Shown here piece by piece: positions 1,014-61,541 of a stretch of 64,000 nucleotides of DNA; position 1 is the first letter of the stretch, and each line of letters begins with the position of its first letter. Where the stretch lies: positions 5,309,501 to 5,373,500 of the forward strand of contig NC_134681.1 of assembly GCF_024713945.1 (NCBI RefSeq), given 5' to 3'. Under the pieces are notes generated by a model. The model made no database searches, was not told the DNA's origin, and saw nothing but the letters and a program-made list of their open reading frames with translations. This stretch comes from Dermatophagoides farinae. Taxonomy: Eukaryota; Arthropoda; Arachnida; Sarcoptiformes; Pyroglyphidae. The position numbers and the translations under genes were made by a program.

Positions 1014-1534
1014 ATGGTCAATGAGGTAATTTACATTTTGCCTTTGATTGAAAATGCTAACAATTTTCCTTGTCTTTTGAAGCATAAAATTTTCATTGAT
1101 GATCAATGATCATTAGACATATAATTGGTGCCGTCTTTAGAAAAACGATCATGGTAATGATGCCGAGCATTACAAATTTATTGGTGGATATCTGGTCACT
1201 AACATGGTACGATGTCCAACGAAACATTATGTTCGTCATCAGGTAACTTTGGAATTTCGTTATCAATCAATAATTCTAACACTTACATTTCTCAAAAGTC
1301 TATTCAGAACATGCCTGCATTGAATTGTCGGAACAACTTATTCGGTAAGTCGACATATTCTTCATATCTAAAGATTGATAAAGATTGGTCTATCTTTTTT
1401 TATTAGGTTCGTTCCTGAAATTTTACAATCATCAAATTGAAATTCGATTGATGATTATGTTCGAGATCAATTCGGCGGTTCCATTGTTCATCAGCATTCA
1501 ATTCAAGAATAGTTTGGCCATGTTCAACACATGA
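1014..1534 (+). CDS. Candidate small spliced gene, unknown product
   Basis: I infer join(1014..1025, 1141..1242, 1308..1344, 1407..1534), 92 codons plus stop. Introns are 1026-1140 (GTAATT...TTTAG), 1243-1307 (GTAACT...TTCAG) and 1345-1406 (GTAAGT...TTAG), all short like the ERG28 introns. The three main exons read through both internal junctions in one frame, including EHYKFIGGYLVTNMVRC and NMPALNCRNNLF, with no simple-sequence bias. I do not recognise the family. The ATG at 1014 is simply the first in frame below an upstream stop, so more 5' exons may exist. Alternatives are a non-coding spliced RNA or a decayed gene. The splice sites are better supported than the coding claim. Confidence 0.3.
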
Positions 1535-1538
1535 TAAC

Positions 1539-1568
1539 AGGTTAGGCTAGGGTTAGATTAGGCTTAGG
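1539..1568 (+). repeat. Short TTAGG-like degenerate repeat
   Basis: About 30 bases read AGGTTAGGCTAGGGTTAG followed by ATTAGGCTTAGG, a run of variants of the TTAGG unit used at many arthropod telomeres. It sits between the two spliced ORFs of the first locus. It is too short and too degenerate to be a telomere tract and may be coincidence. Confidence 0.3.
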
Positions 1569-1641
1569 AACATGATCTGAGCTATTTCCTATTGAATTTG
1601 ATGCTGATTGAATCTTTGGAATCAATGAAGCGATCGAAAAC

Positions 1642-1941
1642 ATGATTATAAGTCGAAGATTCATGGAATGGAACACATACTTGAAAATGATCATGGTAAG
1701 CAAATGAATAGATTAATTGAACAAACAATTAATATTTATTTTTACTTAGGATCGCCGGCGAACAATTGGGAAATTGAATCTCGAACCACGGATAGAATTT
1801 GGACATTGTCTTGGAACATGGACCGCGATTATGGATTTATTTATGTCAAACGGGACAATTAACGTTTTATGGCGCAATTTGGATGTGAAATATGCATGTA
1901 TTTTATTATTTAAAATTTTTAATAAATTAATATTTCAATAA
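1642..1941 (+). CDS. Second candidate spliced ORF of the same locus
   Basis: join(1642..1695, 1750..1941) gives 81 codons. The intron 1696-1749 has GTAAGC...TTTACTTAG borders, 54 bases. The junction is phase 0 and leaves an uninterrupted, non-repetitive reading frame containing TIGKLNLEPRIEFGHCLG and GTINVLWRNLDVKYACILL. Stops in all frames around 1532-1615 prevent a simple join to the preceding ORF. The locus is therefore either two short proteins, one gene with a further unrecognised intron, or a pseudogene. No family recognised. Confidence 0.28.
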
Positions 1942-2046
1942 AATCAATTAAATTTCAATATATATCGATTAAATTAATATGAGGGGTAAAGGGAATGAAA
2001 GGGGGTCAAAATTGCTGCAACAATCGGTGAGCGACACCATCGATAA

Positions 2047-2223
2047 TTTCGATATATCGAAAAAACAATCGGTCAGTCGGGTGGTCGCGAAAATCGCGAG
2101 TACTCGCGAAAATTGCGAGTAGACTATCGATATATCGATAGTCAGTCGGCTAGTCGTATGTCGTTTGCGAGTACTCGCGATTTTGGCGAGATTTCTGAAC
2201 CACCCAAAATCGCGAGTACTCGC
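2047..2223. repeat. Cluster of perfect palindromes
   Basis: Within 177 bases there is TTTCGATATATCGAAA (2047-2062), TCGCGAGTACTCGCGA (2094-2109), a perfect 22-bp palindrome built on ATCGAT (2122-2143), and two more copies of the core GCGAGTACTCGC (2167-2178 and 2212-2223). The block is rich in CG steps, unlike the flanks. The symmetry keeps both strands partly open, producing shadow ORFs. It could be a small foldback element, a cluster of dimeric protein-binding sites, or a replication/boundary element. No terminal duplication was found. Confidence 0.7.
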
Positions 2224-2229
2224 TGGCAA

Positions 2230-5200
2230 CCACTTTTTTTTCTGTGTTTGTCAATTGTAGCCGAAAATTTTGGCAGCTGTATAATTGTAATTGGATTTGT
2301 AGAAAAAAACCAAATTAATTATATCGTTATTAATATTGTAACTATAAATACGCAATATAATTATTTGATTTTAGCGATTGAAAAAATTCAATGCCAACTT
2401 GTATTGTTATTTGTTGACAACACCCATCACCTGAATGCAATGTAAATATATCAATACAGTGACAATACGGTTACCAAAGAAATCGATTTTATTTCTACAT
2501 TTTTTCCACATATGATTTGTATATCCAGACTTTTGACGGTGACAAAAATTTTTTTTCTTCCACTACCATCGTCCAATTTGTTGTTTGGTAAAGAAAAAAA
2601 TGAAAATGAAATCGATTTTGATCGACCACGACAACAAGTTATCTCTTTAATTAACAAAAAAAAATAACTAAACGATACACATTTGAAATATACTATTTTT
2701 TGAAATATACTATTATTGAAATTCTACAAAACAGGATAGAAAATTAGTTTTTTTTCTGGTGTAAATCATAGAAATACAAAAAACAAAAATCATGATGATG
2801 ATAATGATGAGAAAAACTTTCATCCAACTTTATCCCTTCAAAAGTTTTTATCCGTTTTTGGACCACGCTTGGCTCAAAAAAAAATGCTGGTTCTCGGGTC
2901 TTTTGATTCAATGCATTGAAAATATTCAATTCAAATTTCTTTTTTTTTTATCATCAATTTAGTTTCAAAACAATTGACCATTCTATAGTGAACATACAAT
3001 TAACTGGATAAAAAAAAACGTCAACGATGATTGTTTTACATCAATTGTTGGTTGCAAACAAAAAAAAAAGAAGAAAGATATGGATGGAGCTCAATTTGAA
3101 ACAATTTTTTTTTCATTGTTTTTGTACATCATGGATCCATTCGATGACATATCTTGGATGATGTTCTGATATGATTATGAAAACATCACAGACACACACA
3201 CACACACAAAGAAAAAAACAACATGTTTGAAAACGGATAAAAAGAATGAGAATTTTAGGAAGAAAAAAAATAAATTTAATGAAAAAAAAAAATTCTGACA
3301 ACCTCAAACTGACATGGAGAAAATGAAGTAAATTTGTTTTGTTATTTTTTCCGAATTGGATTTCATTGTCATCATCAATAGAAATGAAATTGTTTTCTTT
3401 CTTGTCATACATACACGATGTGTAGTGGTTTGTAAGACTACAACGAGAAACTATTTTTTTTTTTTTTTTTTGGATTCGTCCATCCATTGATGGATTGATC
3501 AAAAAAAGTTCATGAATTCATTTCATTTCAAAAATCAATCGAATCTATTATTCAATTTTCAGTTAATAAATGTGAATAGAATTTTTTTGGGTTTCGGTTT
3601 CATCCATTCAAATATATTCCAAACGAAAGTTGGTCAAATATTTACCATCATACATAGATTGAAGAAGTATAGAAATGTTTATTCTTTTAAAAAAAAAAAA
3701 ATTATCGACATTTTTATTCATTTTACAACACACACACACACACAAAAAAACATATGGATGGAATTTTTTTTTTAAATATCAAATTTAAAAAATTTGATTC
3801 TCTGGTCTTTCTGAATACTAATATTATTATTTGTACACACACACAGAGAAGAGAAAAAAAGAGTTGAATTTCAAAGATTCTTTACCTGTCTACATTTACA
3901 ATCTTTCATCGTTGTCGATTCGGTCGCCATTCATCATTATATATCGACAACGAACGTCGAACAAGATCGAATCCAGAATCTACTACTTTTGAAATGAAAA
4001 ATTCTTTTATTTTTTATTCTAGTTTCTTCATTGCATTGATCACACACACACACACACACACGGTGACACACTTTTTTTTGTTGAATTATTTAAATGTAAT
4101 TTTAAATTTTAATTATTTGACATTTTGTATACAAACCAAACGAAGAAAAAAAACTGGGAACAAAAGAAAAACAACCACAATAACATCGATGACGACTATG
4201 GAAACCATTTTGGAATATTTAAATTCACAAAATATTTAACTGGATTCATGGATACAACCGATTTTCTAAAACCAATAATGATATTGAAATTTACCGTAGA
4301 ATGTGAATATTTTTTTTCCCCCAAAAGTTTTCATCACTCTGAATTCCTCATATTGGATAGAATTTTTCACTTTTTTTTCGCATAATAAAAAAAGTTATTA
4401 TAATGAATTTTTTTTTCTCCAATTTTTATTTTTTTTCTTCATCATTTTTTTATCCATCAGTTTCTCAGTTTTTTGTTTTGTTTTGCTTTGTTTTGTTTTT
4501 ATTTGATTTATAATGAAACAAATAGAAATAATCCAATGTGACAGAGAGATAAATATGATAATAATAATAATAATATAATTATGAGAATAATAATCAAGAA
4601 TCAAGAATGTATTGGGAATTGGCGTTAGAGGTATTGGTGAGTGTTTTTGTGTTTATGCGTGTTGTGAACATGGATAACATGAATAACAAATGAAATGGAG
4701 AATAAGCGACAATAAAAATGTTAATGTATATATTCTGTTCAAATGATGATGATGATGATTTACCTGAGAAAATAATGTTGATAATGTTTTTTGTCCATGA
4801 TATTGACCATGATGATAATTATGATGATGGTGATAATGATGATGATGATGTGGATAAAAATAATTATCTTAAATGATTGTATTTATGGTATATACGCCTT
4901 CATATTCATTACTTGTGTATAATATTCAAATGTTGTTGTTGTTGTTGTTTGTGTTGTGAGAAGGGTCACAAAAAAAAATTTGAACCGGTTCCGATACCAA
5001 AAAAAAAAACCGGAAACCGAACCGGCAATTCCCGGATTTGGTTCTTCACAATCAACATCTTGTACTAGTTGGTTATTTAGAAAAAGTTTGAATGAATAAA
5101 TGTTCCTAACCTTATACACGAATTAGTTCGGTGACACAGAATTTGTTGATAAATTATAAGAATATAATAATTTGTGAGATTGCACTTGATTATCTTGTTA

Positions 5201-8200
5201 TTTTTTTTTCATATGGAAATGGAATCAAATTCGTTTTTGTTTTGTTTTAATTTGAGACATTTTTGGATTTTTTTTTCATTCATTCATTCGTTCAATCAAT
5301 TAATTTAGATTAGAAAAATTTGATATGATTAAATTGAAAATTGTTCAAAACAAAACACACAAAAATTCCAAATGAGGAATCATTCAAAATCAATGAACCA
5401 AAAAAAAATTATGGCGAGATTATAATGTATGTGAATGGACAACATTCTGGATATTTATTATAATAGGGCGTATATATGTTATTTCGATGATAGCAAAAAT
5501 ATAAAAAATTTTTGTATAGTTTTACCTGTCGCTTTGTGTGTGTGTGTGTGTTTGATTTTGAAATTTTCTTTTTTTTTACCAGAAAATAAAAATTTTGATT
5601 GTATAGATTAATCAACAAATGAAAAAAAAAATAACAACAACATTTGGACTGGTAACCAATATATTATTGTGTATGTGTGAATTCTGTGTGTGTATTCAAA
5701 ATTATCTTATTTCCATACCACCATGTGATGATCACAAAAATTCACAAAATCAATATAGCCAATGTGAACAGACAAACAAACAAAAATAAAATAAAATAAT
5801 TAACAACAATCAGGGGAAGGGAAAAAAATTGATTCTTTTTTTGCATTCTTTATTCATATAGATTTTTTGGTATTTTTTAAATTTTCAATATTCTGTAATT
5901 GTGTTCGGACAAAGAATGAATGATTTTTTTTAGAGGGAATGAAAAAAAAACCAAAATAGAATCTAGTTCTTTTTTTTGATCAAGATTTATAGTGTTGTGA
6001 TATAGTAATTTCATTTTATTTTTACTTTTTTTTTGTTAATTTTTTGATTTCAAAACATAAATTGTGAGGCTTGTATGTTGATTGTTTGTATATAAATGTG
6101 TATGTGGATGTGTCAAATGTGAAAGGCATCGGGTATTTATAGTCATCATCATCATATCAAGACAGAATCATCATCATCATCATCATCAATATAAATCACT
6201 GAAATTCATTTTTATTTGTATGGATTTGTGAATGAATTAATGAGTGAATAAGGGGGAGAGATTCATGATAAAAATGTAACAAAAAAAAAAATCGAATGAA
6301 AAAAAAGTATTCATATCAAAAACAGCAAACAAACAACAACCAGAAAAAAACTGAAATGAAATGAAAATAAAAACAATCGTAAATGAATGAATGAATAAAA
6401 AAAATAAATAAAATTCTGAATTTTCTTTCCATTGTGATGATAATCAGGCATATGTTAATTGAAAAACAAAAATATTCTGATTGCACAGAATCAATTCATG
6501 GTCATTTTTGTTTCATTGTTGAGAATCAAAACTGAATAGTGTCAAAACAACATGCACATTTTCAATAATCAAATGTTTTTAGCCAATCAAATGCCAAACA
6601 TGTTGTATATCACCACAGGTTAATTAAATATTTGTCTGTTTCATCACACACACACACACACGTTTAACCATTTTTCTTTATATGAAAAATTTAAATTGTT
6701 ATCAATCCAAAAAAAATATCGTCATGTAATCGTTGTGTGAATGTGGTAGAAATGAGAAAAAAAAACAAATAATTCATAGCAAACAAGAATATAATAATAA
6801 AAAATAATATATAATCATTTTTGTATATAATATTGAAGACAAAAAAATAAAAAAGAACAAAAATATAACAACAAATATAATTATTGATTCCAAAGAACAA
6901 TAATAATCAAATTAATCAATCGATCAATGAATGAATGAATGGTTTTTAAAAAAAAACAGATTGTGATAATAATAATAATGACGATGATGATGATAGGCCA
7001 AAAAAAAAAAAAATATAACACGGAATCAATCAAAAATCCATTCAAAAATGAGAATCAATTTGAGAAATGAAAAACAGAGACTTTTTGTTTCATATCGTTT
7101 GATGCAATGACCATAATATTTGTTGATGATTGAAATCATGTTCATTTTGATAACGGGAATTAGTGTGTGTTTGTTTGTTTGTATGTATCGTATTTTTCTT
7201 TGTTATTATTATTTTATAGCATATGTATAAAAAAAACAGTAAATTGTGTTGTATTGTTGTTGTTTAAAAAAAAAAAAATTTCATTTGTTATGAATTTGTA
7301 GAAGAAGAATAAGAACAACAAAAAGAAAAAGAATTAGGCCAACAAAATTGATTTTTGGTTTCATTTTCGTAAAAAATAAAATATTTCAGATTGCCAACGG
7401 AGATTTTTATTAACATGACAAAAAAAGGAGAAAAATGGTAATAGTGTAGTGTAAACATTTTTTTTTCAATGTTTTAATGTGAAAATATTGAAATTTTTGT
7501 GAAAATTGAATGAAAGAAATGAAAATTCTTTTCTTTCGTAATTGGATTCGTTAACAATTAATGTCGATGGTGATGATTGTAAAATCATTGTGAGGAATAT
7601 AATTTTTTTTTCACTCGATTTGAATGAAAATGATTGAATTGAAATCCGTGTAATAAAAGTGAATTTTTTTTTTATTGTAAAATTCAAATGAAATGTTTTC
7701 ATTGTTCATGTTTTATATATTCATTTGTTATTGTCGCCATGGATGTTGGATTTTTTTTTGTTGTTGTTGTTGCAAGTATGAAAATGGATAATTCAGGTGT
7801 TTTACATGTATAAATGTGTATTTAGTATGCAAATTAAATGAAATAGAATGAATTGTCGATAAATGATGGTGAAATTGATGGAATATTTTATGAGGATGGT
7901 GATGATGATGATAATGATGATGATCGTTTGAAATAGTTGTTTGTTTGCCATAGCCTATATATACGCATGACCAATAAGTAAAAGGAAATTGAGACGAAGA
8001 AAAAAAAAAAAAAAAATAAAAAAAAATGTGAATGAGAGAGAAAGAGAGAGAGAGAGAGATAGGATATAGAGAAGTAGACAGAAGAATCATAGAATGAGAT
8101 CGTCGATTCGAGATTCGGATCTGGAACTAGAAAGAGAAAAAAAAATTCAAATAAATTTATGTGATAAATGAATATATATATATTTTTATGGAAAATTCTT

Positions 8201-15856: not shown

Positions 15857-15986
<130 letters not shown>

Positions 15987-19200: not shown

Positions 19201-19692
19201 TTTGGATTTAGAATACGAAAGTATTCTGGATCTGTGATTCGAGATGATTCAGCTCGAAGTGTACCGTTGCCCAATTTAAGAAGCCATTCATTGTATTCAG
19301 CAAAATTGGCTGATCTCATATTGACAGGAACGCACAAAAACACGGAGGCTCTGATTCCTCGGATCATTTTCCAACAAAACGATCAAGATCCTGAACTGCC
19401 ATTCAAATTGGTGCGTAGACAATTTCCTGTGGTGTTGGCTTTTGCTCTGACAATTAATAAGTCTCAAGGGCAATCTTTCGAAAAAGTAGGTGTATACCTT
19501 CCTACACCAGTATTCCAACATGGAATGATGTATGTGGCTCTTTCCCAATGCAAAAATCCAAATAATCTTAAGATTTTTGTTGAGGAAATTGAGGAAAAGC
19601 AAGGTGCTATTTTGCTGAAGGTCAACAACGATCGCAGCATCTACACCAAAAATATCGTATTCCGCCAACTTATCAATATCGATGAACAATAA
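19201..19692 (+). pseudogene. Helitron Pif1-type helicase, C-terminal remnant
   Basis: The frame is open from just after a TGA at 19198 to TAA at 19690-19692. It encodes the end of the Pif1-like helicase of Helitron RepHel proteins: EALIPRIIF, then LVRRQFPVVLAFALTINKSQ (helicase motif V region), then YVALSQCKNPNNLKIF (motif VI). In active members motif VI is normally VALSR; here the arginine finger position is Gln, so ATPase function would be lost. The N-terminal replication-initiator domain and Walker motifs are absent. It has no ATG at the start of the homology and is a fragment, not a gene. Confidence 0.85.
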
Positions 19693-19856
19693 TAAGTATG
19701 CTGTTTGATCGATAAGTTGATGTTGGATTTACGTAACATTTTCAAAAGTGTCAGGTACAATACAAAAGTCATGGCTGACCCTGCGGTACCAAACCGAAAG
19801 CCGGAAGCAAAACGCCGTGCATAGAAATCCACCGTCAGGCACGAAGCGTTAAAATT

Positions 19857-20024
19857 GACACCTTTGGCTGGATGCCAAGCAGGGGGGGCGGCGCAGCCGC
19901 CACACCTGCGGGTATCCAGCTATATTGACCGTCAAGGATTGATACCTTTGACTGGATACCAAGCAGGGGGGGCGGCGCAGCCGCCACCCCTGCGGGTATC
20001 CAGTTATATTGACCGTCAAGGAGT
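19857..20024 (+). repeat. Two tandem 84-bp GC-rich repeats in the Helitron 3' region
   Basis: Unit 1 (19857-19940) and unit 2 (19941-20024) differ at only a few positions. Each contains AGCAGGGGGGGCGGCG, the palindrome GGCGGCGCAGCCGCC, then ACCTGCGGGTATCCAG and TATATTGACCGTCAAGGA. The position just upstream of the terminal hairpin suggests a subterminal repeat that may influence transposition or copy amplification. Confidence 0.9.
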
Positions 20025-20077: not shown

Positions 20078-22846
20078 TCATTTATAATGCACATGATAAA
20101 TGATAGCAGTAATAACGGTAGTAGTAGTAGTGTTGGTGGTGGTGGTTGTAGTAGTAGTTATAGTAATAGCTAGTGATAATCGTTAACACAACTATATGCG
20201 CTATAATTGTGTAATCAATTGTTTTTTTTATATAAATTATCAAAAACAATAATATGATGAAAAACGGATGAAAAACAAAACAAAACAAAAAACGTAAAAA
20301 GATTATTATTATTAACACAGATATTCCATTTCTGATACATCCAATATAACAACAAAGAATAATAATTACATCTGCAGAAAAAAAATAGATAGATAGATAG
20401 ATAAAAAGACAGAGAGAATCAGTGAATTCTTTATTCTGTTTTGCTTACTCAAAAACAAAAACGAAAAAAAAATTCCAAGAAAATTGCTAACTTGTTTATA
20501 AGAAGATTATCAATCAAAAGAAATACATAGGGATTTCAAAGAAAATGTAAAAAATATATAGAATTTTTTCCGCACCAATGTTGATGAGAATTGATTTCCC
20601 TCTCCCACTATCTCCTTCTCCTTCTTCTTTACGTTTTTTTTACAGTCTTGTTTCATTTTCCCATTAGTTGTCCCTCAAAAAAAAAATCAAATCAAAACGA
20701 AAAAAAAAATCCTGGAGAGCCATTGAACTAATTAATTTTTCACGGAAATTATCTTTTTTCCCTGAATTTTTTATTTCACGCATATTTTTTCAAATGTTTC
20801 AAATCTATCTCTCTCTCTCTCTCTCTAGTTTGCACTCTGTCCAATTTGTCAGTATCTCTAGACAAAATTTTAAAACTTTCGTTCCAATGACATTTAAAAA
20901 ACAAAAAAAAAAATTCATTGGCTGACTCTTTTTTTCTAATGGAGCTGATCTGAATAATTATTATGATGCTGATGATTATTAATGCGAAAAAAAGAGGGAA
21001 GAGAAAAAAAATTTGTATTAAATTAAAAATTTGCCAAAGTCAATTTAGAGTACGCTCATCATCATTATCATCCATAATGTGAATGATGATGATGATGATG
21101 ATGATGATTGTTAAACGTCAGACGAAAGACAAAAATTTTTTTTTATTTTTTGACTTTTTCATTTCTTTTGATCCATTTAAAAATGACAAATTAATCCTGA
21201 CAAACCATCATCATCATCATCATCATCATCATCTATATACGTCAATTGTCCATCTCATTGATTGTTATAACAAAAACAATGACAAAATGAAATCGATTAT
21301 TTGAAAAAAAAACACTACTTAATGAAAATTGATAATGGCAGGTAAATACTTGAATTTGAATATTCATTCATTTATCAATCAAAATTAATGGCTTGATAAA
21401 CCTGTCATCATCATTACAATATAATCATTAACAAAATTGTCCTATTGTCAATGGAATCAAATTATCCAATTGATAACGAATTAATCTAAAAAAAAAAAAT
21501 GCGAATGATCAGGTTGTATGTATATATATAATAATGATGATTTCAGATGGTCGACCATTTTTGCCAGAATGATTCGGTATATATAAAATGTTTTCACATC
21601 AACAACATCCAATACATTTATATTGAATGATTTGATTAATTTGATATTAAATTGAAAATTAATCAGTAATAAAAATCAACGAAACAAGAAAAAACTTTAA
21701 CGATTTCTACACAAAAAAAAATCATTCAACAATGATTATGATGGTGATGATAATCATTAATGAATGAAACAAAATAGTAAAATCTTTAAAGCCTTGAAGC
21801 AACATTATGCGAATATAAGAAACAAAAAAAAACTTTGGACTCTAAATTCAAAATTATCATCGATTATTATCATTGTTTTTGTTGTTGTTTTTTTTGGTGG
21901 TTAGTCGTTTGTTGTTGAAAAGCAACTGGCAACGATTTTTTATCTTTATCTTTATTTTTTTTTTACACAAAGCAATCATAAAGACAAAATGGACAAACAT
22001 TTCGTACTGTATGTCAAATAAAATGTGATCTGATTCAATCAAATTTAAACTGAAACAAAAAAAAATAATAATCACGTGGTTTTAATGTCTGTATATATAT
22101 TATAACACACCAGGTATAATCAATAATGAACATGTAATTGTCAAAGAATGTTTTTTTTTGTCTAAATGATTAAAATTGAATCAATGAATGAATGTTAATA
22201 AATCCAAAAAAAAAACATTAAACGGTAATGACAGTGTGTGTGTGTTAAACAATGCAAATTAAATAATCATCATCATTATCATGCAATAAAAAAAAGAAGA
22301 AAAAAAATCATTTAAGAAGTAATTCACTTCAAATGAGATTTTGATGACCATTTTTGCATAATAATTATGTTTACAAATCATCATCATTTATTTATTTATT
22401 TATCTATTCAAATCTCGGACATTGCGAGCATATTATAGCATAGCATTTAATCTTGTAATTGAAAAGTTCACCAGACGAGTTAGCAGCAATAACATTGATA
22501 TATATATATATTCTCTATGGATGATTTTCATCACCATTTTTATTTTTCTTTTTTTTCTGTATTCAACTATATTCAATGAATTTTATGCTTGTTTTTAGTA
22601 TAGGAATAAATGAATGAATGAATGAATGAATAAAATGTGTTAATGAAATTGAATATTAATAACGAATTGTCACCAGTAATTTATTTGATTGATTGATGTA
22701 AAAAAAAATAAGAGATAAAAAATCTGCTTACAGGCATGCAACATACACACACACACATAACCAAACAAATCAGGAAAAAGGAAACGGATCCGGAAAATGA
22801 CGGAAAAAATGATAAAATAAAATTTTATTTTTTTTATGACACCTAC
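20078..22846 (-). other. FoxO intron 1, 5' portion
   Basis: Runs from the Helitron to the donor AAG|GTAGGT at 22847/22846. Holds (TAG)n/(GGT)n near 20119-20165, (GAT)n at 21083-21108, (ATC)n at 21207-21232 and (GAAT)n at 22610-22631. No exon or conserved element is recognised. Confidence 0.6.
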
Positions 22847-24313
22847 CTTCCAACCAGCTGATGAATTATTATCGCCTTTATCTTTAAAATATGTCACATT
22901 CTGTACCATCCATTCATATATCTGTGATAATGTTAGACGTTTATCCGGTGAGCCATCGATTGCACGAGCAATTAATTCAGCATATGATGAATTACCCCAT
23001 GCATTACGTCTGGATGTATTCTTTTTTGTTGTTGCCGATGATGATGTACCGGATTCTGAACCAGAACGATGAAGATATGGTGTTTGTCCATTAGATAATT
23101 GTGAATCACTTGCACAACTACCAAGTGATCCATGCACTTTTAGACTAGAATATTTTCCCGTTGTTGTATTATCATTATTATTATCAGCCGGTGTCGTATA
23201 ATATAATTGTTGTTTCTCTGTTTTATCATTCAAATTATTCTGATTATTATTATTATTATTATTATTGTTATTAGATGTTGTCATTGATGTAGATGCAGAG
23301 GTAGATAATGATGTCGATGAATGATTTTGGACAGTTTTATTATCATTTATCGACGTTGTTGTTGATGATGTTGTTGTTGGTGATGATGATGATTTCGATT
23401 GAAATGGATTAGACGGATAAATATGTTGATGTGAATGTTGTTGTTGCTGTGGCTGCTGAAATTGATGTGAAGAAAGAATCTGTATTGGATTGATTAATCC
23501 TGAACGTCCATTCGGATCGTTATGATCATTAACCGGATCATCAAACATATACATTGAAGTATCGACATTATTTTGCAACAAATAAGGTGATTGTGTTTGT
23601 TGCTGTTGTTGTAGTGGTGATTGCTGATGATTTTGCTGTTGATTCGATGTTGATAATGATGTTGGATCAACATCGGTTAAATCTAATGAAGTTAGTACAG
23701 ATGGATTGATAGCATTTGAGGTAATACCATCACAGCCAATACCCATGACCATATCAGAGAAATCACCATCACCATGTAATTGATCATCACCAAATTCATC
23801 TTGTTGTTGTTGTTGAAAACTTAATGATTGTGGCCATGTATATGCACGTGAACGAAATTGTGAATTTTGATTCATACTGGATAGATCGGTAATTGGATCA
23901 TTATCCAAATTATGAAGAATATTTGATTGATTCATTGTTGCCGTAGTTGTATGAAACGGTGATAAAATATGTATGGTATTCGACTGCTCAAGTGAATCAC
24001 ATTCATTCAAATCATTTGTTGCCGCTGCCGTTGTTGCTGTATTTGATGATGATGATGTTGATGATACTATTGTTCCATTTGTAGGCGTTTCTATCAATGC
24101 AGTTGCAGCAGATGTTTGTTGTGAATGTTGTTTTATCGTTGTTGATGTTGTTGTTAATGATGATGATGATGATGATAAATGTGGACCAATCGTAAGAGTA
24201 GATGATAAAGAATTAACACGTGGAGGTGGTGGTGATGGTGTTGAAGAGTATGCAGAACCAGAGAAGTTATAATCTTCTTCGTTCGTATCCTCCATTTCAA
24301 TGATAGGCTCCAT
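22847..24313 (-). CDS. foxo: FoxO exon 1: N-terminal region and first half of forkhead domain
   Basis: 489 codons from ATG 24313 to AAG 22847, donor GTAGGT, phase 0. RSRAYTWPQ near residue 159 is the N-terminal Akt site (RxRxxT-W-P) of FoxO proteins. [14 protein letters not shown] at about residue 435 starts the forkhead domain, followed by [19 protein letters not shown] and [15 protein letters not shown], ending exactly where exon 2 continues with NSIRHN. The start is the first in-frame ATG. The frame is open a further 114 bases upstream without another ATG, and CTTCAG at 24385-24380 could be an acceptor, so an upstream coding exon cannot be excluded. The segment between the Akt site and forkhead is expanded with Gln, Ser, Thr and Asn runs. 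Total inferred protein is 1451 residues, about twice typical FoxO length. Confidence 0.94.
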
Positions 24314-24427
24314 TCCATTACCATTACCAAAACCGATGAAACAATGAAATTGTTTCGTTGGCAATGGCGGTGATGGTAGCTGAAGATTGATTGATTGAAT
24401 CGTGATGAAAATCTTTTTTCTTTCTGT
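24314..24427 (-). promoter_or_regulatory. FoxO 5' leader with possible splice acceptor
   Basis: In frame with FoxO but lacking ATG. AATCTTCAG ending at 24380 resembles an acceptor, fitting FoxO genes that have a distant non-coding first exon. No promoter motif could be assigned with confidence in the flanking AT-rich DNA. Confidence 0.3.
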
Positions 24428-31013: not shown

Positions 31014-32621
31014 GAAAAAAAATTCGCGCCCACAAAAGAAAAATTCAAATTCAATTTCCTAAAATTTTTTTTTAATATCATCAGGAATGTTTAAATTTTG
31101 TCATTATACACACAAATTAATTAAAAAAAAAAAAATTGATGTCAAATATATATATCTCAATGGAAAGAGAAAAATTTTGTTGTTGTTGTTGTTGTTGTTG
31201 TTAAAACAAGAACCTAGGAGCAAAAAATACAAATGTATTCGTTAAATTTTTTTTTATGATATTTACCCAAAATATCGATCTCTATGATGATGTTAATGAC
31301 AAAACTTGTGCGTATATATATCTCACTCTCTGTGTGTGTATATATATGTTTCTATCCTAATTATAATGAGTTCATAATGATTTTTTTTTCTTCTTCTTCT
31401 TCTTCTTCTTTTTACTTTAATCTTTCATCAATCGTCAATGTGTTTCAAACGACCAAACGATATTATTGTGTTGAAATATTAATAAAAATGAAACAAAAAA
31501 AAATTGATTGTTTATCTAACGTGATGATATTAATAAATGAAATGAATGATGATGTTAATTATATTTAGGTCATAATGTTTTTTCTTTTCTTTTTCATTCA
31601 AATTCAATTGTGATTAATGAATGTGAATTGAATGATTGTTGTTGGAAAAATGGATCAAATTGATAAGCAGAGAAAATAAAAAAAAAATAATTTATGTGAA
31701 TAAACAGATATAATAGAGCACAAAAGAAGGCAAAAGTAAACCAGAATCAGCAAGAAAAAAAAGCTAGTGCATTATGAATATTATTACACTTTCTTTGATT
31801 TTTTCCCAAAATATTTTATGCACTTTTTTTTACTGATTATAAATCAAAAATCAATCAATATTCATTAATATAAGAATAAAGGATTAAATCAATCGATTGA
31901 AAATTGATATATCACATATATTGACAAAAACAGCAGCAACGGATCATACCATATATGATGATGATAATTTTTTTTTTTTTGATTTCATTTCAAACAATTC
32001 TATAGGGCCAAATAATACTGTTGCTGTGATTATCCCAATCTCACTGCCATTATCCATCAACATCGTGATGATTGAATATCACAATATATTGGAAAGTAAA
32101 GCCAACAAAAAAATAAAAAAATAAAAAAAAAATTTTTTTAAATCGATCATCATGATAATCATCAAAGCAAAAATGATTAAAATTGAAATTGAGATGCCGA
32201 TATTGGGATGAAAGTGATAAATCAAGGGGAAAAAAAAGAAAAATAAAAAAATAAAACTACGTTTTTTTGCCATACCATACCATGACAATAATCAAATAGA
32301 TCAATTTCAACCTATCAATCAATAAATTGATGATGATCAAATAATTTTCGCATCATCAATCAATGAATGAAAATTACGAAAAAAAAAATGTCATACATCA
32401 TATGACACAGTGATTGATTGGATTTATCATGGCCGAACAAACAAAAAAAAAGAATCATACTTTTTGTCCAATTTGTTGCATTGTTTTTTTTTTTAACAGA
32501 AACCCGAAAAAAAATTTGCAATTTTAACGTGAAAATTATCAATAATTTTTTTTTCTCGGTATAAAAAAAAATTTAATTGAAAAGACGACAACAACAACAA
32601 CAACAACACAAAACACGTACG
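24428..32621. other. Intergenic, microsatellite-rich, no gene supported
   Basis: Simple repeats throughout: (AC)n at 25470-25503 and 26095-26116, poly(ATC) blocks, CAG/CTG runs (26211-26223, 27171-27184, 28438-28461), and many A/T runs. One 69-codon frame ending at 25962 is not simple repeat, but it lacks an ATG in a convincing position and splice signals. FoxO promoter or 5' UTR exons may lie here unseen. Confidence 0.5.
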
Positions 32622-32659
32622 TACCATTCAAATGTCACAACGAATTCAGAAATTCGATC

Positions 32660-35629
32660 ATGAATTGTTCATCAGACATTTTAGCTTTACAAGAACCATA
32701 TGTCTTCAAAAATCGTATACCCTTTTCTTTGTCTTCAAGAATCTATCACAGTCATCCACAAAACGGTACTATTTATAGTGCCATTGTTATTGTTAACAAT
32801 TCGCTGACTATTGAGCATTTAACAAATTTCACCAATTCCTTCGCCACAACAATTAAGATACAAACCAAATCTACCAGTCTAATTCTAGTGAATCTGTATC
32901 TTCATTCCAACATTTTTTGTGATTTACATCATGATTTCTTCGTCTCTATTTTATCAACCTTCTTCAACCTTCCGATTATCTTCTGTGGTGATTTCAATGC
33001 TAGAAACCCATACTGGCACGACACTATTACAAATAGAAACGGCAATAAGCTTAAGGATATTATTGATTCACAAAGCCTTATTGTTCTTAACAGCAAAACC
33101 AAAACGTGTCGTAACGCTAGTATTATTGACTTAACAGTTACCAATTCCAAGGCATACAGTTACGTTTCAAATTGGAATGTAACACGATTATGTGAGATGT
33201 CTGATCATGAAACAATCGTTTTTACAATCAATTCCTTCAACGATCAATTTGAAAAACACTACATCAAATCAACATGGAAATTTATTGAATCAGATATGAG
33301 CTCCTACTTGAATAATATTGATCAACATTCGATATGCTGTCTAAATCAGTTTCTCCACGACTGTAATAGTTTCACAAATATTGATAGTGCAATTTCTAAA
33401 CTTACAAAAATTTATATTGAAGCAGCATATAAAGTTTTTCCAGTTCGGAAATCTTCATCGTATCCAAAAAAATACTCTTGGTGGTCAAATTTGCTTGATT
33501 CTCAAAAACAATATTTCCATTACATAAAAAATTTGTATTATCGACACGATCAACAAGTCAGCTATGAGTTTTATAAAAATGTCCGAAACAATTACATAAA
33601 ATCAATTCGAAAAGCAAAAAGAGATAGTTTCAGATCTTTTCTTGAAGATGTAAACTCTTCTGACCACTTCGGCAACACATATAGAATTTTAAAACTTTTA
33701 ACATCTAATACTAATAATAAAATTCCAATGATTGACCAAATTCCTTCTAGTGAAAAACAACATCAAATGAACCATATGTTGAATCAAATGTTCCCTGATG
33801 ATAATAAAGCCAATGACACACAAACAACTTATTACATTAGACATTTCCAACATTTGCTTTCTAATCGATCTGATGTCTTCATTACTATTGATGAAGTAAA
33901 AACAATCATCAACAATTTAAACCCAAAAAAAGCACCTGGTTTGGATTATGTCACTAATAAAATGATTAAAGCAACATGTGATCTTCTTGCTCCAACGATT
34001 CAACTATTATTCAACAAATGCATCAATTTGCATTATTTCCCTCGTGAATGGAGAAAAGCTACTGTACGAATCATTCCTAAGCCAAATAAAACTGATTACA
34101 ATAATATAAAAAGCTATCGCCCAATCAGTTTGATTTCCAACCTAGCCAAACTTTTTGAAAGAATTATCAATAATAAACTAGCGGCTCACCTTAACCAATT
34201 TATTCATCCAGAGCAACATGGCTTTGTTAAAAATAAATCTACAATATCCGCTTTATCATCAATTGTCGATTCAGCCATTCAACATAAACAACACGATAAA
34301 ACAGCTATCATTGCTATTGACATTGCTTCTGCTTTCGACAAGGCATGGTGGCCAGCAATTATTTACGAATTGGATAAGGCAAATATTCCGTCTGATTTGA
34401 TAAAAATTATGATGTCATACTTATCTGATAGATCTATCTTGTTTGACTATGGTGATTATTCGTCAAGTAAAACATTATCATGTGGCTGCCCGCAAGGTGG
34501 TGTCTTATCTCCTCTGCTATGGACAATTTTATTGAATGATCTCCTAGTTACGTTCAATATCTCTGATTCAAAAGTTGTTGCATTTGCCGATGATATCACA
34601 ATTGTTTGTTGGGCGTCGTCTGTAAACCTCCTTAAAGAGAAAATAATTGCTTCCATAAACTTCGTTGACAAATGGTGCCAAAGTCGGAAACTAAGCATCA
34701 ATAATAATAAAACTAATATTCTATACTTATTTAAAAAAAATAAACCAGTCATTTATCACAGCAATCATCAAATTTCTCCTTCTGATTCAATTAAAATTTT
34801 AGGCTTGACCTTCGGTAATCATAGACATCTCTCAAAACTGAATTTTTCCCCTCATATCAACAATATTGTCGACAAATCCCAACGAATATGCAGAATTTTA
34901 TTTGCTCTAATTGGAAATACCTGGGGTTTACCCTGCAAAAAAAGAATCAATTTGTATAAAGGTATGATCCGCCCAGCCATTTCGTATGGCTATCAAATAT
35001 GGTTTAATCAGATTAATAAATCACAAATAAAAAAAATCGACTCATTACAATATCGAATTTTAGCCAAATCAATTCAAGCTTATTGTTCTGTTTCTGAAAA
35101 CATTGTCCATCTCATCTGTTCATTACCGAAATTGTCTGATTACTTTCACACTCATCTCATTACCAAACATATCCATGACTACCATTTGAAAGCCATTGAA
35201 GTAAAAAACATTGAAAATCTCCTTCTACTCAAATATTACAATGGTTCTAATGATACTTTTAAAAAATTCTTTGTCTCTCCGTTCATTCCGAATTACTTCC
35301 GTCCAAATTTTTACAACATTCAATTTATTTCTAATCATGGGAAGTTCAATCAGTACTTATTTAAGATTGGCAAGTCATCCTCCCCATTATGCCCATGCGG
35401 TCGTGATATTCAATGCTCGATCCACATTCTTTTATCATGCCATAATTTTTCTTATAGAAACCTTTTCTCAAATGCAAAAGATTGTATAGCAACCAAGCAA
35501 AATTTCAACATCTTCAACCAATTTTGTAAAGAATATTGTCTAAATCAGGGGTCGGCAACCTTTTTCGGACAGCGGGCCATTTTCAAAATAAAATTTTTTA
35601 TGTGGGCCACACATTCAAATATAACTTAA
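32660..35629 (+). CDS. LINE ORF2: endonuclease and reverse transcriptase (5'-truncated, 3' end replaced)
   Basis: The 989-codon frame begins in the endonuclease domain: ILALQEPY (residues 8-14) with the catalytic Glu, GDFNARN (110-116), IIDLTVTN (155-162) and SDH (181-183). The reverse transcriptase has PKKAPGLDYVTNKMIK, SYRPISLISNLAKLFE, motif A IAIDIASAFDKAWW (Asp about 554), CPQGGVLSPLLW and the catalytic AFADDI (about 641-646). A C-terminal C-C-H-C cluster, LCPCGRDIQCSIHILLSC, near residues 910-928 is typical of the R1/Jockey group. The true start lies upstream in the lost 5' part; ATG 32660 is only the first Met. Residues from 963 on are encoded by the inserted hAT terminus; without it the LINE frame would stop three codons later, at 37759-37761. 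No inactivating change was seen in the catalytic motifs. Confidence 0.88.
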   Translation: MNCSSDILALQEPYVFKNRIPFSLSSRIYHSHPQNGTIYSAIVIVNNSLTIEHLTNFTNSFATTIKIQTKSTSLILVNLYLHSNIFCDLHHDFFVSILSTFFNLPIIFCGDFNARNPYWHDTITNRNGNKLKDIIDSQSLIVLNSKTKTCRNASIIDLTVTNSKAYSYVSNWNVTRLCEMSDHETIVFTINSFNDQFEKHYIKSTWKFIESDMSSYLNNIDQHSICCLNQFLHDCNSFTNIDSAISKLTKIYIEAAYKVFPVRKSSSYPKKYSWWSNLLDSQKQYFHYIKNLYYRHDQQVSYEFYKNVRNNYIKSIRKAKRDSFRSFLEDVNSSDHFGNTYRILKLLTSNTNNKIPMIDQIPSSEKQHQMNHMLNQMFPDDNKANDTQTTYYIRHFQHLLSNRSDVFITIDEVKTIINNLNPKKAPGLDYVTNKMIKATCDLLAPTIQLLFNKCINLHYFPREWRKATVRIIPKPNKTDYNNIKSYRPISLISNLAKLFERIINNKLAAHLNQFIHPEQHGFVKNKSTISALSSIVDSAIQHKQHDKTAIIAIDIASAFDKAWWPAIIYELDKANIPSDLIKIMMSYLSDRSILFDYGDYSSSKTLSCGCPQGGVLSPLLWTILLNDLLVTFNISDSKVVAFADDITIVCWASSVNLLKEKIIASINFVDKWCQSRKLSINNNKTNILYLFKKNKPVIYHSNHQISPSDSIKILGLTFGNHRHLSKLNFSPHINNIVDKSQRICRILFALIGNTWGLPCKKRINLYKGMIRPAISYGYQIWFNQINKSQIKKIDSLQYRILAKSIQAYCSVSENIVHLICSLPKLSDYFHTHLITKHIHDYHLKAIEVKNIENLLLLKYYNGSNDTFKKFFVSPFIPNYFRPNFYNIQFISNHGKFNQYLFKIGKSSSPLCPCGRDIQCSIHILLSCHNFSYRNLFSNAKDCIATKQNFNIFNQFCKEYCLNQGSATFFGQRAIFKIKFFMWATHSNIT

Positions 35630-35654
35630 ATAGTGCTTTTATATCATATACGAC

Positions 35655-35690
35655 AGGGATGGCAAACTTTTTTTGATGTCCGTGCCACAA
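35655..35690 (+). repeat. Second hAT-like terminus inside the first
   Basis: CAGGGATGGCAAACTTTTTT followed by TGATGTCCGTGCCACA has the same order of motifs as the outer left end (CAGGGGTCGGCAACCTTTTT, then a GGGCCA box). It looks like a diverged relative of the terminal repeat. No matching inverted copy was found on the right side, so it is a remnant or a subterminal duplication. Confidence 0.45.
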
Positions 35691-35742
35691 ATTCATAAAA
35701 ATTCCTATTTAAATATGTAACGTGTCACAATAAAATTTCATT

Positions 35743-36570
35743 CGAAAATGGCAAATGTCCAAACTAACACGACCAGTTCAGAATCGAGAAAATGGCAAAT
35801 CCAACCTAACACGACCAATTCAGAATTCAAAATTGAGAAAATAACAAGTCCAAACTAACACGACCAGTTCAGAATCGAGAAAACAACAAATCCAACCTAA
35901 CACGACCAATTCAGAATTCAAAATTGAGAAAATAACAAGTCCAAACTAACACGACCAGTTCAGAATCGAGAAAACAACAAATCCAACCTAACACGACCAA
36001 TTCAGAATTCAAAATTGAGAAAATAACAAGTCCAAACTAACACGGCCAGTTCAGAATCGAGAAAATAACAAATCCAACCTAACACGACCAGTTCAGAATC
36101 GAGAAAACAACAAATCCAACCTAACACGACCAATTCAGAATTCAAAATTGAGAAAATAACAAGTCCAAACTAACACGGCCAGTTCAGAATCGAGAAAATA
36201 ACAAATCCAACCTAACACGATCAGTTCAGAATCGAGAAAATAACAAATCCAACCTAACACGATTAGTTCAGAATTCAAAATTCAAAATAAAAAAAATAAC
36301 AAGTCAAACTTAACACGACCAGTTCAGAATCGAGAAAACAACAAATCCAACCTAACACGACCAATTCAGAATTCAAAATCGAGAAAATGGCAAATCCATA
36401 CTAACACGATCAGTTCAGAATCGAGAAAATGGCAAATCCATACTAACACGATCAGTTCAGAATCGAGAAAATAACAAGTCCAAATTAACACGGCCAGTTC
36501 AGAATCGAGAAAATAACAAGTCCAAACTAACATGACCAGTTCAAAATTCAAAATTCAAAAGTCCAAACTG
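35743..36570 (-). repeat. Satellite array, left arm (18 units)
   Basis: Eighteen copies of a unit built around CTAACACGACCAGTTCAGAA and TCGAGAAAATGGCAAATCC. Short units are about 42-43 bp; long units (about 48-54 bp) carry an extra TTCAAAATT stretch. Short and long forms partly alternate. It is the reverse complement of the array at 36875-37600. Confidence 0.93.
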
Positions 36571-36714
36571 AACCAAACTGAATTTGAATTATTATCGACT
36601 TTTACAACATTTTTTCGAATCAGATAAAATTTTTTTTGATGATCATTTGTTAATGTTATTCATTGTGTGGAAAATTACAACAACATATTCTGAAAATAAA
36701 TATTTCCATCTTCA

Positions 36715-36894
36715 ATGGCAGAACATCCGATACATATCGAATTAATTAAATGTAACAAACATTATTTAACTCTGAATCCTGGAAAACAGAATTCATCATT
36801 GAAAATAATTTTTAATAAATCTAAAAAACGGTATCGAAACCAACCCATTCTGGTAACTAGAATAACTAACCATCTGAACTGGTCGTGTTAGGCT
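36715..36894 (+). other. Spacer ORF between the satellite arms
   Basis: The loop between the two arrays (36571-36874) is non-repetitive. It contains a 59-codon frame, ATG 36715 to TAG 36894, with basic composition (NKSKKRYRNQPILVTRITNH), running into the first repeat unit. It is not recognisable as a transposase. It may be host sequence captured by the element or a chance ORF. Confidence 0.3.
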
Positions 36895-37600
36895 GGACTT
36901 GTTATTTTCTTGATTTTCAATTTTGAATTCTGAACTGGTCGTGTTAGGCTGGACTTGTTATTTTCACGATTCTGAACTGGTCGTGTTAGTTTGGACTTGT
37001 TATTTTCTCGATTCTGAACTGATCGTGTTAGTATGGATTTGCCATTTTCTCGATTCTGAACTGATCGTGTTAGTATGGATTTGCCATTTTCTCGATTCTG
37101 AACTGATCGTGTTAGTATGGATTTGCCATTTTCTCGATTCTGAACTGGTCGTGTTAGTTTGGATTTGCCATTTTCTCGATTCTGAACTGGTCGTGTTAGT
37201 TTGGATTTGCCATTTTCTCGATTTTGAATTTTGAATTCTGAACTGATCGTGTTAGTTTGGACTTGTCATTTTCACGATTCTGAACTGGTCGTGTTAGTTT
37301 GGTCTTGTCATTTTCATGATTTTGAATTTTGAATTCTGAACTGGTCGTGTTAGTTTGGATTTGCCATTTTCTCGATTCTGAACTGATCGTGTTAGTTTGG
37401 ATTTGCCATTTTCTCGATTCTGAACTGATCGTGTTAGTATGGATTTGCCATTTTCTCGATTCTGAACTGATCGTGTTAGTTTGGACTTGTCATTTTCATG
37501 ATTTTGAATTTTGAATTCTGAACTGGTCGTGTTAGTTGGGATTTGCCATTTTCTCGATTCTGAACTCTGAACTGATCGTGTTAGGTTGGATTTGTCATTT
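36875..37600 (+). repeat. Satellite array, right arm (16 units)
   Basis: Sixteen copies of TGAACTGGTCGTGTTAGTTT followed by GGATTTGCCATTTTCTCGAT, mostly 42 bp with occasional 54-bp units. It is inverted relative to the left arm, so transcripts could form a stem of hundreds of base pairs. Because 42 is a multiple of three, several frames stay open and read as a 14-residue repeat (SELVVLVWICHFLD). This is a property of the repeat, not evidence of a protein. Confidence 0.93.
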
Positions 37601-37752
37601 GTGATGTTGATTGTTGCAAATTTGTCGACACAATATTTTTTTAATTTAATATTTTTCCTAAAATTATGTTGGTGCTTTGGTGGGCCGCACAAAAAGTTGT
37701 AATGGGCCGCATGCGGCCCGCGGGCCGCAGGTTGCCGACCCCTGGTCTAAAT

Positions 37753-50942: not shown

Positions 50943-51066
<124 letters not shown>

Positions 51067-58148: not shown

Positions 58149-58759
58149 TTATGAATGAATATTTACAGTAGTGGCCGCTATGTTTGTTGATGTTGATGTT
58201 GTAGACGTTGATGCTGTTGCCGTTGTCGTTGTAGATGCTGTTGTTGTTGTTGTTGTTTTTAATTGTTGATGATTTTTACCATTTCCTTTTCCATTTGTTG
58301 TATTATTTGATTGCAATTGATGATGTTGTTGTTGATCACGATGATGATGGCCAACAACAACACTACTGCCAGCAGCAGAAGCAACACTACCACCACCACC
58401 ACCACCACTATGTATATGTCCATGTATACGATGAATACTTTGATGTATTGAACGTTGATTTTGATGTAATAGATCACGATGATGCATTAATTGTTCATTA
58501 CGTTGTTGCTGTTGTTGTTGTTGTTGTTGTTGACGACGTGCATGATGTACAGCGGCTGCAGCTGATCCAATTGAACTTGGTTGATTACCACGACGAAATT
58601 TACAAGTTAATATTCTTATATATGTACGGCGAAAATTTGTATTACACAATGCATAAAGTAATGGATTTAATGTAGAATTAACATAGCAAAGAAAATATGC
58701 AAATTGCCACCAAACACCTTCTGGATCGATTAAACCAGTATAGAATGTTTTCAATAATA
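58149..58759 (-). CDS. Muscarinic acetylcholine receptor-type GPCR, last coding exon
   Basis: The exon follows a pyrimidine-rich acceptor (TTTTATTAG) and begins with the last two bases of a split codon, then LLKTFYTGLI. TM7 carries CYVNSTLNPLLYALCN: the NSTxNPxxY core followed by ALCN is the muscarinic receptor hallmark, and helix 8 FRRTYIRILTCKF closely matches arthropod muscarinic receptors. The 140-residue cytoplasmic tail is low complexity (Q10, a Gly run, His and Thr/Ser/Ala runs) and longer than usual. It ends at TAA 58149. A GTAAAT just before the stop could be a donor to a further exon. Exons for TM1-TM6 should lie at higher coordinates but were not found up to the window edge, implying a long intron or exons outside the window. 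The receptor would sit in the plasma membrane and couple acetylcholine to G proteins. Confidence 0.85.
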
Positions 58760-61541
58760 CTAATAAAATGAGAAAAAAAAAGAATCGATTAGTTTTCATC
58801 ATCAAGTTTAAGTAAAAAAAAAAACATTGAATAAATTTGATTATGAGAAAAAAAAATGAAATTCAAATCACGAAATGTAAACAAATAAAATTGAAAAAAA
58901 ACGAAAATTTTTCTTTCGATTCAAATTCCAGTCATATATGACGATGACATTTAACTAGAGACCATAAAAAAAATGTCTAAACTTGTTGAAACAAATGTAG
59001 ATCTACATCACAGAAATAAAAGTCACTTCTGTTCTTGAAAACAGAATCAAGTTTTTCATTTGTAATTTGAACGGATTCAATACAATACTAATTCAATTAT
59101 AAGTCATTCTTTTTTTTCCATTTTCACCATACACAAATATAAGTGTTTTTCAATAGAATAAAACTAAACCACATAAATTCACATAAATTCTTGATGATTC
59201 ATTCTAAATGATTTCCAGGTAAATGATTTTCGATACAAATTGAATCAATTATCACACAAATAAATCCGATCAATTTAAATGTGTCTGTGTGTGTGTGAGT
59301 GTGAAAAAACGAAAAAAAAATCAATTTTCATCGAATTATCTCAGTTGGACTGCGCGGTTGGTGAAAAAAAAAGATAACAAGCAAAATACCGAAAAAATTT
59401 TCAATAGAAAAAAAACCCGAATTACTTAAGCCTATTAATTAACCACATATTATTCAATTGTTTGCAATTGATTCAGATTTTTTTTCGCCACTAATAAATG
59501 TGTGTGTGGGATTTATTTTGTTTCGAACGAGAAAAAATATTGCCATCATTATCTCTGAGATGTCTGCGTGTGTGTGTGTGTTTTCATTTGTTTGAAAAGC
59601 AGAAAAAAAATTTACGAAAAAAAACACCTAACATAAAAGTGAAAGTTTTTTTTTGTTCCATTATCATCAATGAACGAGCGGGGGTGGGGAAAAAAAGGCA
59701 GATTTAGACAATTTTTATCATCATCAGCATCATCGTCGTCAGAATATAGAGAGAAAAAAATATATAAAATCGACCATTTTCTCTTTTTGCCCATTAATAT
59801 CATCATCATCATCATCATTAGACAGACGTCTTTATTTTTATTTTTTTTTAAACTTATTGAAACTCATCATTTGTAACAGAAATCGGTGAAATAACGAATG
59901 AATGGTAAGGGCCGTGTGTGTGTGTGTGTAAGATATGGTAAGCCATTATGTTTGCTAAGCTTTTTATTGTCCAATTTTTTGATTCCCAAGAATTTTTTTT
60001 GATTCAGTTCTATTTTTTTTTGTTTTTTAGATCATGCGTCAAGAATATTACGTGTAAGAAAACAGATTATTTGAATTTTTTTTTCTCCCATAGTTTTATA
60101 TACATACATCAAATGTGTAAAATTTTTTTTTTGTTTTTGTTTTCTAATACGCAATTCAGAATAATCTTTTGCAATTACTTCACTTAGTTTATATTTGGAA
60201 ATGAAGATAACAACAACAACAAAAAAATGAGCAACAACTTCTTGAGCAAAAAAAAAAAAAATAAAAAATAAAATTCATGTCATCTTTTTTTTCCATGTTT
60301 TGTTTGTTTAAGCCTAATCAGATTTCTATCGAAAAAAAAAATTTGTTATGTATTAATCCATTTTTTTTACTTCCCTCGAACCCCTCCCCCCAAACAAATA
60401 GATATTTTCACCGATGGCTCTAGATAAATAGAATTTACAGACTGGCCTTTGCATTTGAATGTTCAATCTTCCAAGTCGTATTGGCATTGGTATCTCTGTT
60501 GGCTAAAATCTATAATGATTTTTCAAGCAACCATCACAGCTGTGTGTACAGCAGCAAATACATTCGACATACACACACACACACACACACACACACTAAA
60601 GAAAACATAAAGGAAAATATGAATCGAACAAAAATCGTGGAAAAGAATTGTGTAAATTGAAAATTTTTCGTAAATGGTTTGATTATCATACGACCCATAT
60701 TCATTCCCCTATCGACAAATGAAATCCGATATTCTGTATACAAACACAAGAATAAAAATGAATGTGTAATCATCTTCAAAATTTAAAAAAAAAAGATTTT
60801 CATTGTTTTTTTTTTGGCTACACAAAAACAGACGTTCAATTTTATCCAATCATCAATAACTTGTAATCATAAAATCATAATATCATTGACATGTGTGTAT
60901 AATGAATTCACGAACTTGGCTATGACAAAAGTATTTTTGTCAAAAAAAAATTCGGGCACTCACACAAAAAAAAAACAATCAACAATTCTTTCGATGGAAT
61001 AATAGAAAAGAATTTTTTTTTTGTTAATACTTTCATTTGGTATGTTGAACACGATATATACACAATCACTTTATAATAATAAATTCAATTTTCGTTGTTG
61101 TTATTGTCGTTGATTACCGCAATAAAAAAGGAAAACAACACCACCACCAAAGACGTAGTTCAATTTTCACATATATATACAAAATACGACAAAAAAAATG
61201 AATTCTTCAAAAAAATCTATTTAGAATTCTGATGGTGTTGATCACCAAATGTATGTATATATGTGTGTGTGTGTGTGGTCAATTGATCTTACACAGGAAC
61301 AGAATTTGAAAAAGCATTGACTTTTTTTTCTTGGTATCTGACACACCCGTACACACACATTAAAACGAAACTAAAAATAAATTCGACATTCCAATGAATT
61401 CGCTCTCTCTCTCTCTTGCTCTCTCTCTAGAAATCATCATCACATAAAATTTATTGATCATTATTAATGATTAAAATATCAAGGAAGAAGAAAAAAATAA
61501 AATTGGATGATAATTTTCATTGAAAAACATTCCATAACAAT

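Follow-up and report, generated by a model that had tools for sequence, protein, structure and literature searches.

The foldback (FB) elements of Drosophila carry inverted arms of short tandem repeats, a design shared by the dust-mite element described here, and the FB arms reach the termini. Unlike those of FB, the arms of the mite element, which belongs to the family that we label F1, start about 200 and about 145 bp inside the 15-bp tip. Galileo, a P-superfamily transposon of D. mojavensis and D. buzzatii, has tandem repeats inside its long inverted repeats and forms chimeras, including copies with the two termini of one subfamily around the interior of another, for which recombination has been proposed (PMC3573991). 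Tetris of D. virilis is likewise a non-autonomous foldback whose inverted arms contain tandem repeats, and it has a link to satellite DNA (PMC4079207). Tandem repeats borne by MITEs, such as those of miDNA4 in Xenopus, also multiply inside non-autonomous DNA transposons (PMC9659126). We compare with these systems an element from a 64,000-nucleotide stretch of the Dermatophagoides farinae genome (the window), a genome in which DNA transposons are reported to make up 0.09% (PMC11074847).

A foldback element inserted in a LINE

The segment 35546-37744 of the window is a 2,199-bp non-autonomous hAT element of family F1 (the labels F1 to F6 are our own and were assigned from tips and duplications). 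An unstranded 8-bp target-site duplication, GTCTAAAT, flanks it on both sides (35538-35545 and 37745-37752). The tips of hAT elements are short and inverted and typically begin with CAG; here the left tip (35546-35560, plus strand) and the right tip (37730-37744, minus strand) both read CAGGGGTCGGCAACC with 0 mismatches and agree at 15/15 bp, and none of 100 shuffles yielded two matches when up to 3 mismatches were allowed. The hAT terminal repeats and the duplication named in the original prediction are thereby borne out. Inside the left tip, the non-repetitive end module F1L (35546-35742, plus strand, 197 bp) leads to a left arm of 18 plus-strand units of about 42 bp (35764-36547). An unstranded spacer of about 310 bp, core type A (36561-36870), separates it from a right arm of 16 units in the opposite, minus orientation (36871-37584), which is followed by the end module F1R (37601-37744, minus strand, 144 bp). 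Unit cores were counted at up to 3 mismatches; shuffled sequences gave a mean of 0.00 and never reached 34 (0/100), which confirms the predicted 18 and 16 opposed units with a gap of about 300 bp. The interval first given, 35743-37600, roughly covers the arrays and falls short of the full element, and to call the arrays giant was an overstatement, as the arms measure only 784 bp (left) and 714 bp (right) from first to last unit core. The element thus has the structure of a foldback, in which long inverted arms built of tandem repeats enclose a middle part; its arms stop short of the termini and start inside the non-repetitive end modules. There is no transposase ORF in 35546-37744 among ORFs of at least 110 aa, and the five PF05699 loci of the genome, inspected for flanking tips, gave no convincing tip pair, so that no transposase of F1's own was found.

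A hairpin of 700 bp or more had also been expected of a transcript. In silico the plus strand does fold back on itself, with 627 arm-to-arm pairs and a minimum free energy of -1117.7 kcal/mol, but the duplex is imperfect and its longest unbroken helix is 130 bp. The predicted fold of the minus strand is similar (-1192.8 kcal/mol, 624 arm-to-arm pairs), and five mononucleotide shuffles gave -444.9 to -493.0. The best ungapped stretches of arm-to-arm complementarity are 239 nt at 87% and 189 nt at 95%.

The element interrupts the ORF of a host LINE (endonuclease and reverse transcriptase; 32546-35545, plus strand; RVT_1 4.5e-39, Exo_endo_phos_2 1.6e-15), which it breaks two codons upstream of the stop, in sense orientation. 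When the flanks are joined, all 253 bases match three uninterrupted LINE copies, at C4:6147871 (100%), C1:4198842 (100%) and C6:4357626 (98%); the same search gave five other matches, namely the element's own two flanks and three of partial length. Insertion of the element is therefore shown by paralogous empty sites in three LINE copies. Elsewhere in the window, an ORF at 19201-20022 resembles by eye the end of a PIF1-type helicase, which we take to be perhaps a Helitron remnant, and two 84-bp tandem copies come after it. Two minus-strand ORFs presumably encode, again by eye, a FoxO-type forkhead-like domain (22670-24427) and the end of a rhodopsin-type receptor with an NPLLYALCN stretch (58149-58862). 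Pure dinucleotide runs lie at 15860-15984 (TC, 62.5 copies) and 50945-51060 (AG, 58 copies).

One repeat unit under unrelated tips

We searched the D. farinae assembly (62,435,336 bases in 22 contigs) for the 42-bp unit, as had been proposed, and obtained at least 952 matches to its core at up to 2 mismatches (500 forward and 452 reverse; copy numbers from the genome searches are lower bounds), compared with 0 for the backward control. The loci that were read bear L-numbers; L009-L066 hold 828 units, which with the 34 of the window make 862 of the 952. Because these 862 units lie mostly inside recognisable transposons, the label satellite is doubtful for this repeat. The picture of the original prediction, as worded, in which one hAT element captured a free satellite, is not supported and was rejected, since the unit is spread over many element families and none of the 862 was seen in a free array outside transposons (90 units are unread, and the assembly may lack heterochromatin). 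The suggestion that the element helps to disperse the repeat is supported and was understated: related arrays sit in five hAT end-families (F1, F2, F3, F4 and F6) and in the Tc1/mariner-like F5. A host-gene origin of the unit, pursued through the F6 flank, yielded no parent gene; this flank has at least 13 genome matches, 12 near-complete at 94-100% and one of 54 bp at 84%.

The hAT tips are CAGGGGTCGGCAACC in F1, CAGT[CG]ATTCTCAACC in F2, CAGTG[TA]TTCCCAACC in F3, CAG[GC]GCCGAGCCGTG in F4 and CAGGGCCGGCCC in F6. Perfect 8-bp duplications flank 25 of the 28 hAT elements having both tips (F1 6/7, F2 11/12, F3 2/2, F4 1/1 and F6 5/6), the imperfect ones being L010 (2 mismatches), L025 (3) and L042 (4); judged by these duplications, all five families look like hATs. 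The original prediction was to fall if no other copy combined the terminal repeat with inverted arrays; seven elements with inverted arrays carry both CAGGGGTCGGCAACC-type tips, the window element included, and on this count the prediction stands. The ends of F1, F2 and F4 show no match to one another at E 1e-4. Other end pieces are common to families (F1L-F3a, 83% over 78 bp; F2G-F6a, 94% over 158 bp; F1R-F6a, 92% over 52 bp; F4a-F6a, 77% over 44 bp), and the hAT ends are therefore themselves mosaics. At least 13 genome matches to F1L were found, 12 of them adjoining arrays in loci read (the other, C9:1219693, is unread); near-complete F2G ends lie in array elements in 12/12 cases, and F1R is 98-100% identical in L009-L014. 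Short elements with F1-like tips and no arrays are present as well (L047-L050); those of L049 and L050 (1501-1590 in both) are 90 bp long and have little beyond two inverted F1-like tips. L011 has two array elements separated by 215 bp, one of F3 (1431-3434) and one of F1 (3650-6295), and a separate perfect 8-bp duplication flanks each of them.

The inverted termini of F5 extend for hundreds of bases; those of its copy L018, aligned from the tip, are 94% identical over 721 columns. Between the arrays of L027 and L030 are pieces of a Tc1-type transposase, interrupted by at least one stop; in L027 the two pieces, with at least one stop between them, match HTH_Tnp_Tc3_2 (5.2e-10) and DDE_3 (8.9e-9), and the core of L030 is 97.6% identical to that of L027. 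TA flanks all five F5 copies with both tips (5/5), a search pattern that began with TA making it possible that the TA is internal to the repeat.

The window and the loci read up to L062 contain 42 opposed array pairs, with arms of 2 to 27 units. Their polarity (plus on the left, minus on the right) is uninformative, because pairs were selected so and an inverted pair is symmetrical. Single end-families carry differing spacers. Core A is found in F1 (window, L009 and L010), in F2 (10 copies of a 162-bp version) and in F5 (L018, L029 and L041, besides L020 and L026 with one F5 end); its spacer as in the window numbers 22 among the matches listed genome-wide. Core B is full length in F2 (L025 and L037) and F4 (L031) and shortened in F1 (L011b and L012-L014, with L053 having one F1 end). 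Core C belongs to F3 (L016 and L011a), core D, which holds the transposase, to F5 (L027 and L030), and a 32-bp core to F6 (8 copies); an 88-bp core in the F5 copy L061 is not safely assigned. In 36 of the 42 pairs, ends and cores are joined in a total of ten combinations, and in the other six (L020, L026, two in L034, L046 and L053) the ends are missing or decayed.

Across families with non-aligning ends the spacers are up to 98-99% identical. Core A is mostly 91-99% identical between families, lower for the deleted L010 (window-L018, 94.7% over 302 bp; window-L041, 97.9% over 194 bp; L009-L041, 99.0% over 194 bp), and core B 95-98% (L013-L037, 98.3% over 349 bp; L031-L037, 96.9% over 783 bp). 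Core direction is constant inside each asymmetric combination of ends and core. An assembly artefact appears unlikely, as the combinations are found again at separate loci and have perfect duplications there. Two of the loci with incomplete ends have further contents: L026 (2118-5668) has core-B-like sequence, core A, 6 units and an F5 terminus next to a broken hAT transposase, and in L034 (2019-4064) a LINE ORF whose domains are reverse transcriptase and RNase H starts within an array.

Proposed origin and movement of the cassette

In two hAT families, remnants of Tc1-like termini lie beside the arrays. The F5 tip agrees at 19/22 positions (3 mismatches) with the 22 bases that immediately precede the F4a array, and 0/300 resampled sequences matched equally well; the nine other ends among the ten tested gave no significant match to that tip (33 to 294 of 300). 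The array of F6b borders on a 39-bp piece of F5 terminus (87% identity), and the 32-bp core of F6 matches sequence at the edge of the F5 core that holds the transposase. In the Tc1-like L041, 183 bp of a hAT MITE (2060-2242; 95% to L047) lie inside an array, and insertion of hATs into such arrays therefore occurs. The Tc1-like F5 is the more likely source of the cassette, a direction that these sequence relations suggest rather than prove. Simple intact nesting of F5 in F1 was discarded, as there is no F5 terminus between the F1 ends and the arrays. L063 with L066 resembled an ancestral F5 with few units but is rearranged, with two plus units on each side of a transposase piece, and carries no weight for the origin.

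We favor, at slightly better than even confidence, a foldback cassette that perhaps originated in a Tc1-like element, was captured by hATs and then passed in part between families by recombination of the arrays. The cassette would have arisen by expansion inside that element's long inverted repeats and entered hATs when one element inserted into the other, the Tc1 termini being lost afterwards. Partial exchange between families could then proceed by recombination or gap repair, with the flanking arrays as homology arms, and hAT transposases acting on the short tips would spread the chimeras. A bolder and more tentative form of this proposal treats the inverted array as a transposon parasite that has no transposase of its own, moves between hAT and Tc1/mariner elements through array homology (recombination or gap repair) and has unrelated transposases serve in turn as its vehicles.

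If the arrays act as homology, core-side units are expected to follow the core and end-side units the end. We compared the inner and outer 150 bp of 53 of the 84 arms, having dropped those below 300 bp, those with no assigned end and those of L034, L041, L046 and L053. Over these arms the global test is near null: identity is 0.759 outer and 0.783 inner for the same core side in different families, against 0.766 outer and 0.778 inner for different core and family, and 0.806 outer and 0.793 inner for the same end with different cores. A clean signal of exchange is confined to the full-length core-B pair, where F2-B and F4-B arms have inner identities of 0.93 and 0.93 and outer ones of 0.75 and 0.68, and where the alignment of L037 (F2) with L031 (F4) spans arm, core and arm and ends at the array edges. 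The pattern is absent from the F1-B arms (inner identity 0.77-0.84), and the F2T-B and F1R-B arms are alike on the outer side (0.90), which the exchange model does not explain. Turnover of the arrays could have erased the signal elsewhere.

This near-null outcome also fits separate nested insertions, in which a Tc1-like foldback entered several hATs independently and lost its termini with no exchange between arrays, the cores being common to families because the donors shared them. The F5 relics in F4a and F6b and the derivation of the F6 core from the edge of the F5 transposase core point the same way. We nevertheless consider this history somewhat unlikely: the loci read contain no two-ended F5 copy with core B, and the F1, F2 and F3 ends have no F5 relics beyond array-edge sequence. 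The start phase of the array within the unit differs among end-families, and this counts against one fixed-border cassette inserting repeatedly.

Multiplication of the units by selection as transposase-binding sites, as is reported for the Galileo repeats (PMC3573991), would agree with the position of the arrays next to the termini in the families read. It is quite improbable as a general account, as the same unit sits under unrelated tips of two superfamilies, for all of which one transposase would not suffice, and arm length ranges from 2 to 27 units; for F5 alone it is possible. More improbable still is retention of the foldback for siRNAs made from its transcript, a reading modeled on the strong predicted hairpin and on the insertion in the sense of the LINE ORF. 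It agrees with reports that dust mites, D. farinae included, lack piRNAs and use siRNA-producing master loci that control TEs (PMC5805368), but transposition alone explains the spread, and in the favored history of capture and exchange a hairpin transcript with its siRNAs would be a plausible by-product. Vertical descent from one array-bearing hAT whose descendants' ends diverged is scarcely credible: the subterminal pieces common to F1L-F3a, F2G-F6a and F1R-F6a favor it, but the F1, F2 and F4 cores are 97-98% identical although the ends do not align, and the same cores lie inside a Tc1/mariner-like element.

Comparison with described foldbacks

The mite arrays differ from their closest counterparts in unit and in range. 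The Galileo repeat is about 210 bp long and present in 2-3 copies, against about 42 bp and 2-27 units in the mite, and the exchange described for Galileo is confined to one family of one superfamily (PMC3573991). Tetris has a 220-bp unit and is a single family, assigned to Mutator by its authors; its repeats also form kb-size arrays outside the element, whereas none was seen in the mite, where 90 of the 952 units are unread (PMC4079207). The available parts of the account of MITE-borne repeats do not report them as opposed arrays common to superfamilies (PMC9659126), and the open-access subset of the literature returned no account of a cassette shared across superfamilies. Foldback arms, tandem repeats within transposons and chimeras are each of a known kind; the sharing across superfamilies is the part for which that literature gave no account.

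The presence of closely related foldbacks in at least six families of two superfamilies suggests that such repeats can serve as cargo swapped between transposons. A cassette shared and recombined between superfamilies would disperse tandem repeats, and the 42 pairs of aligned arrays, in the compact genome of an animal reported to lack piRNAs, make the exchange model and the siRNA idea testable with existing reads. Chimeric foldbacks are known within families; a cassette that crosses superfamilies would be a way for non-autonomous elements to change vehicle.
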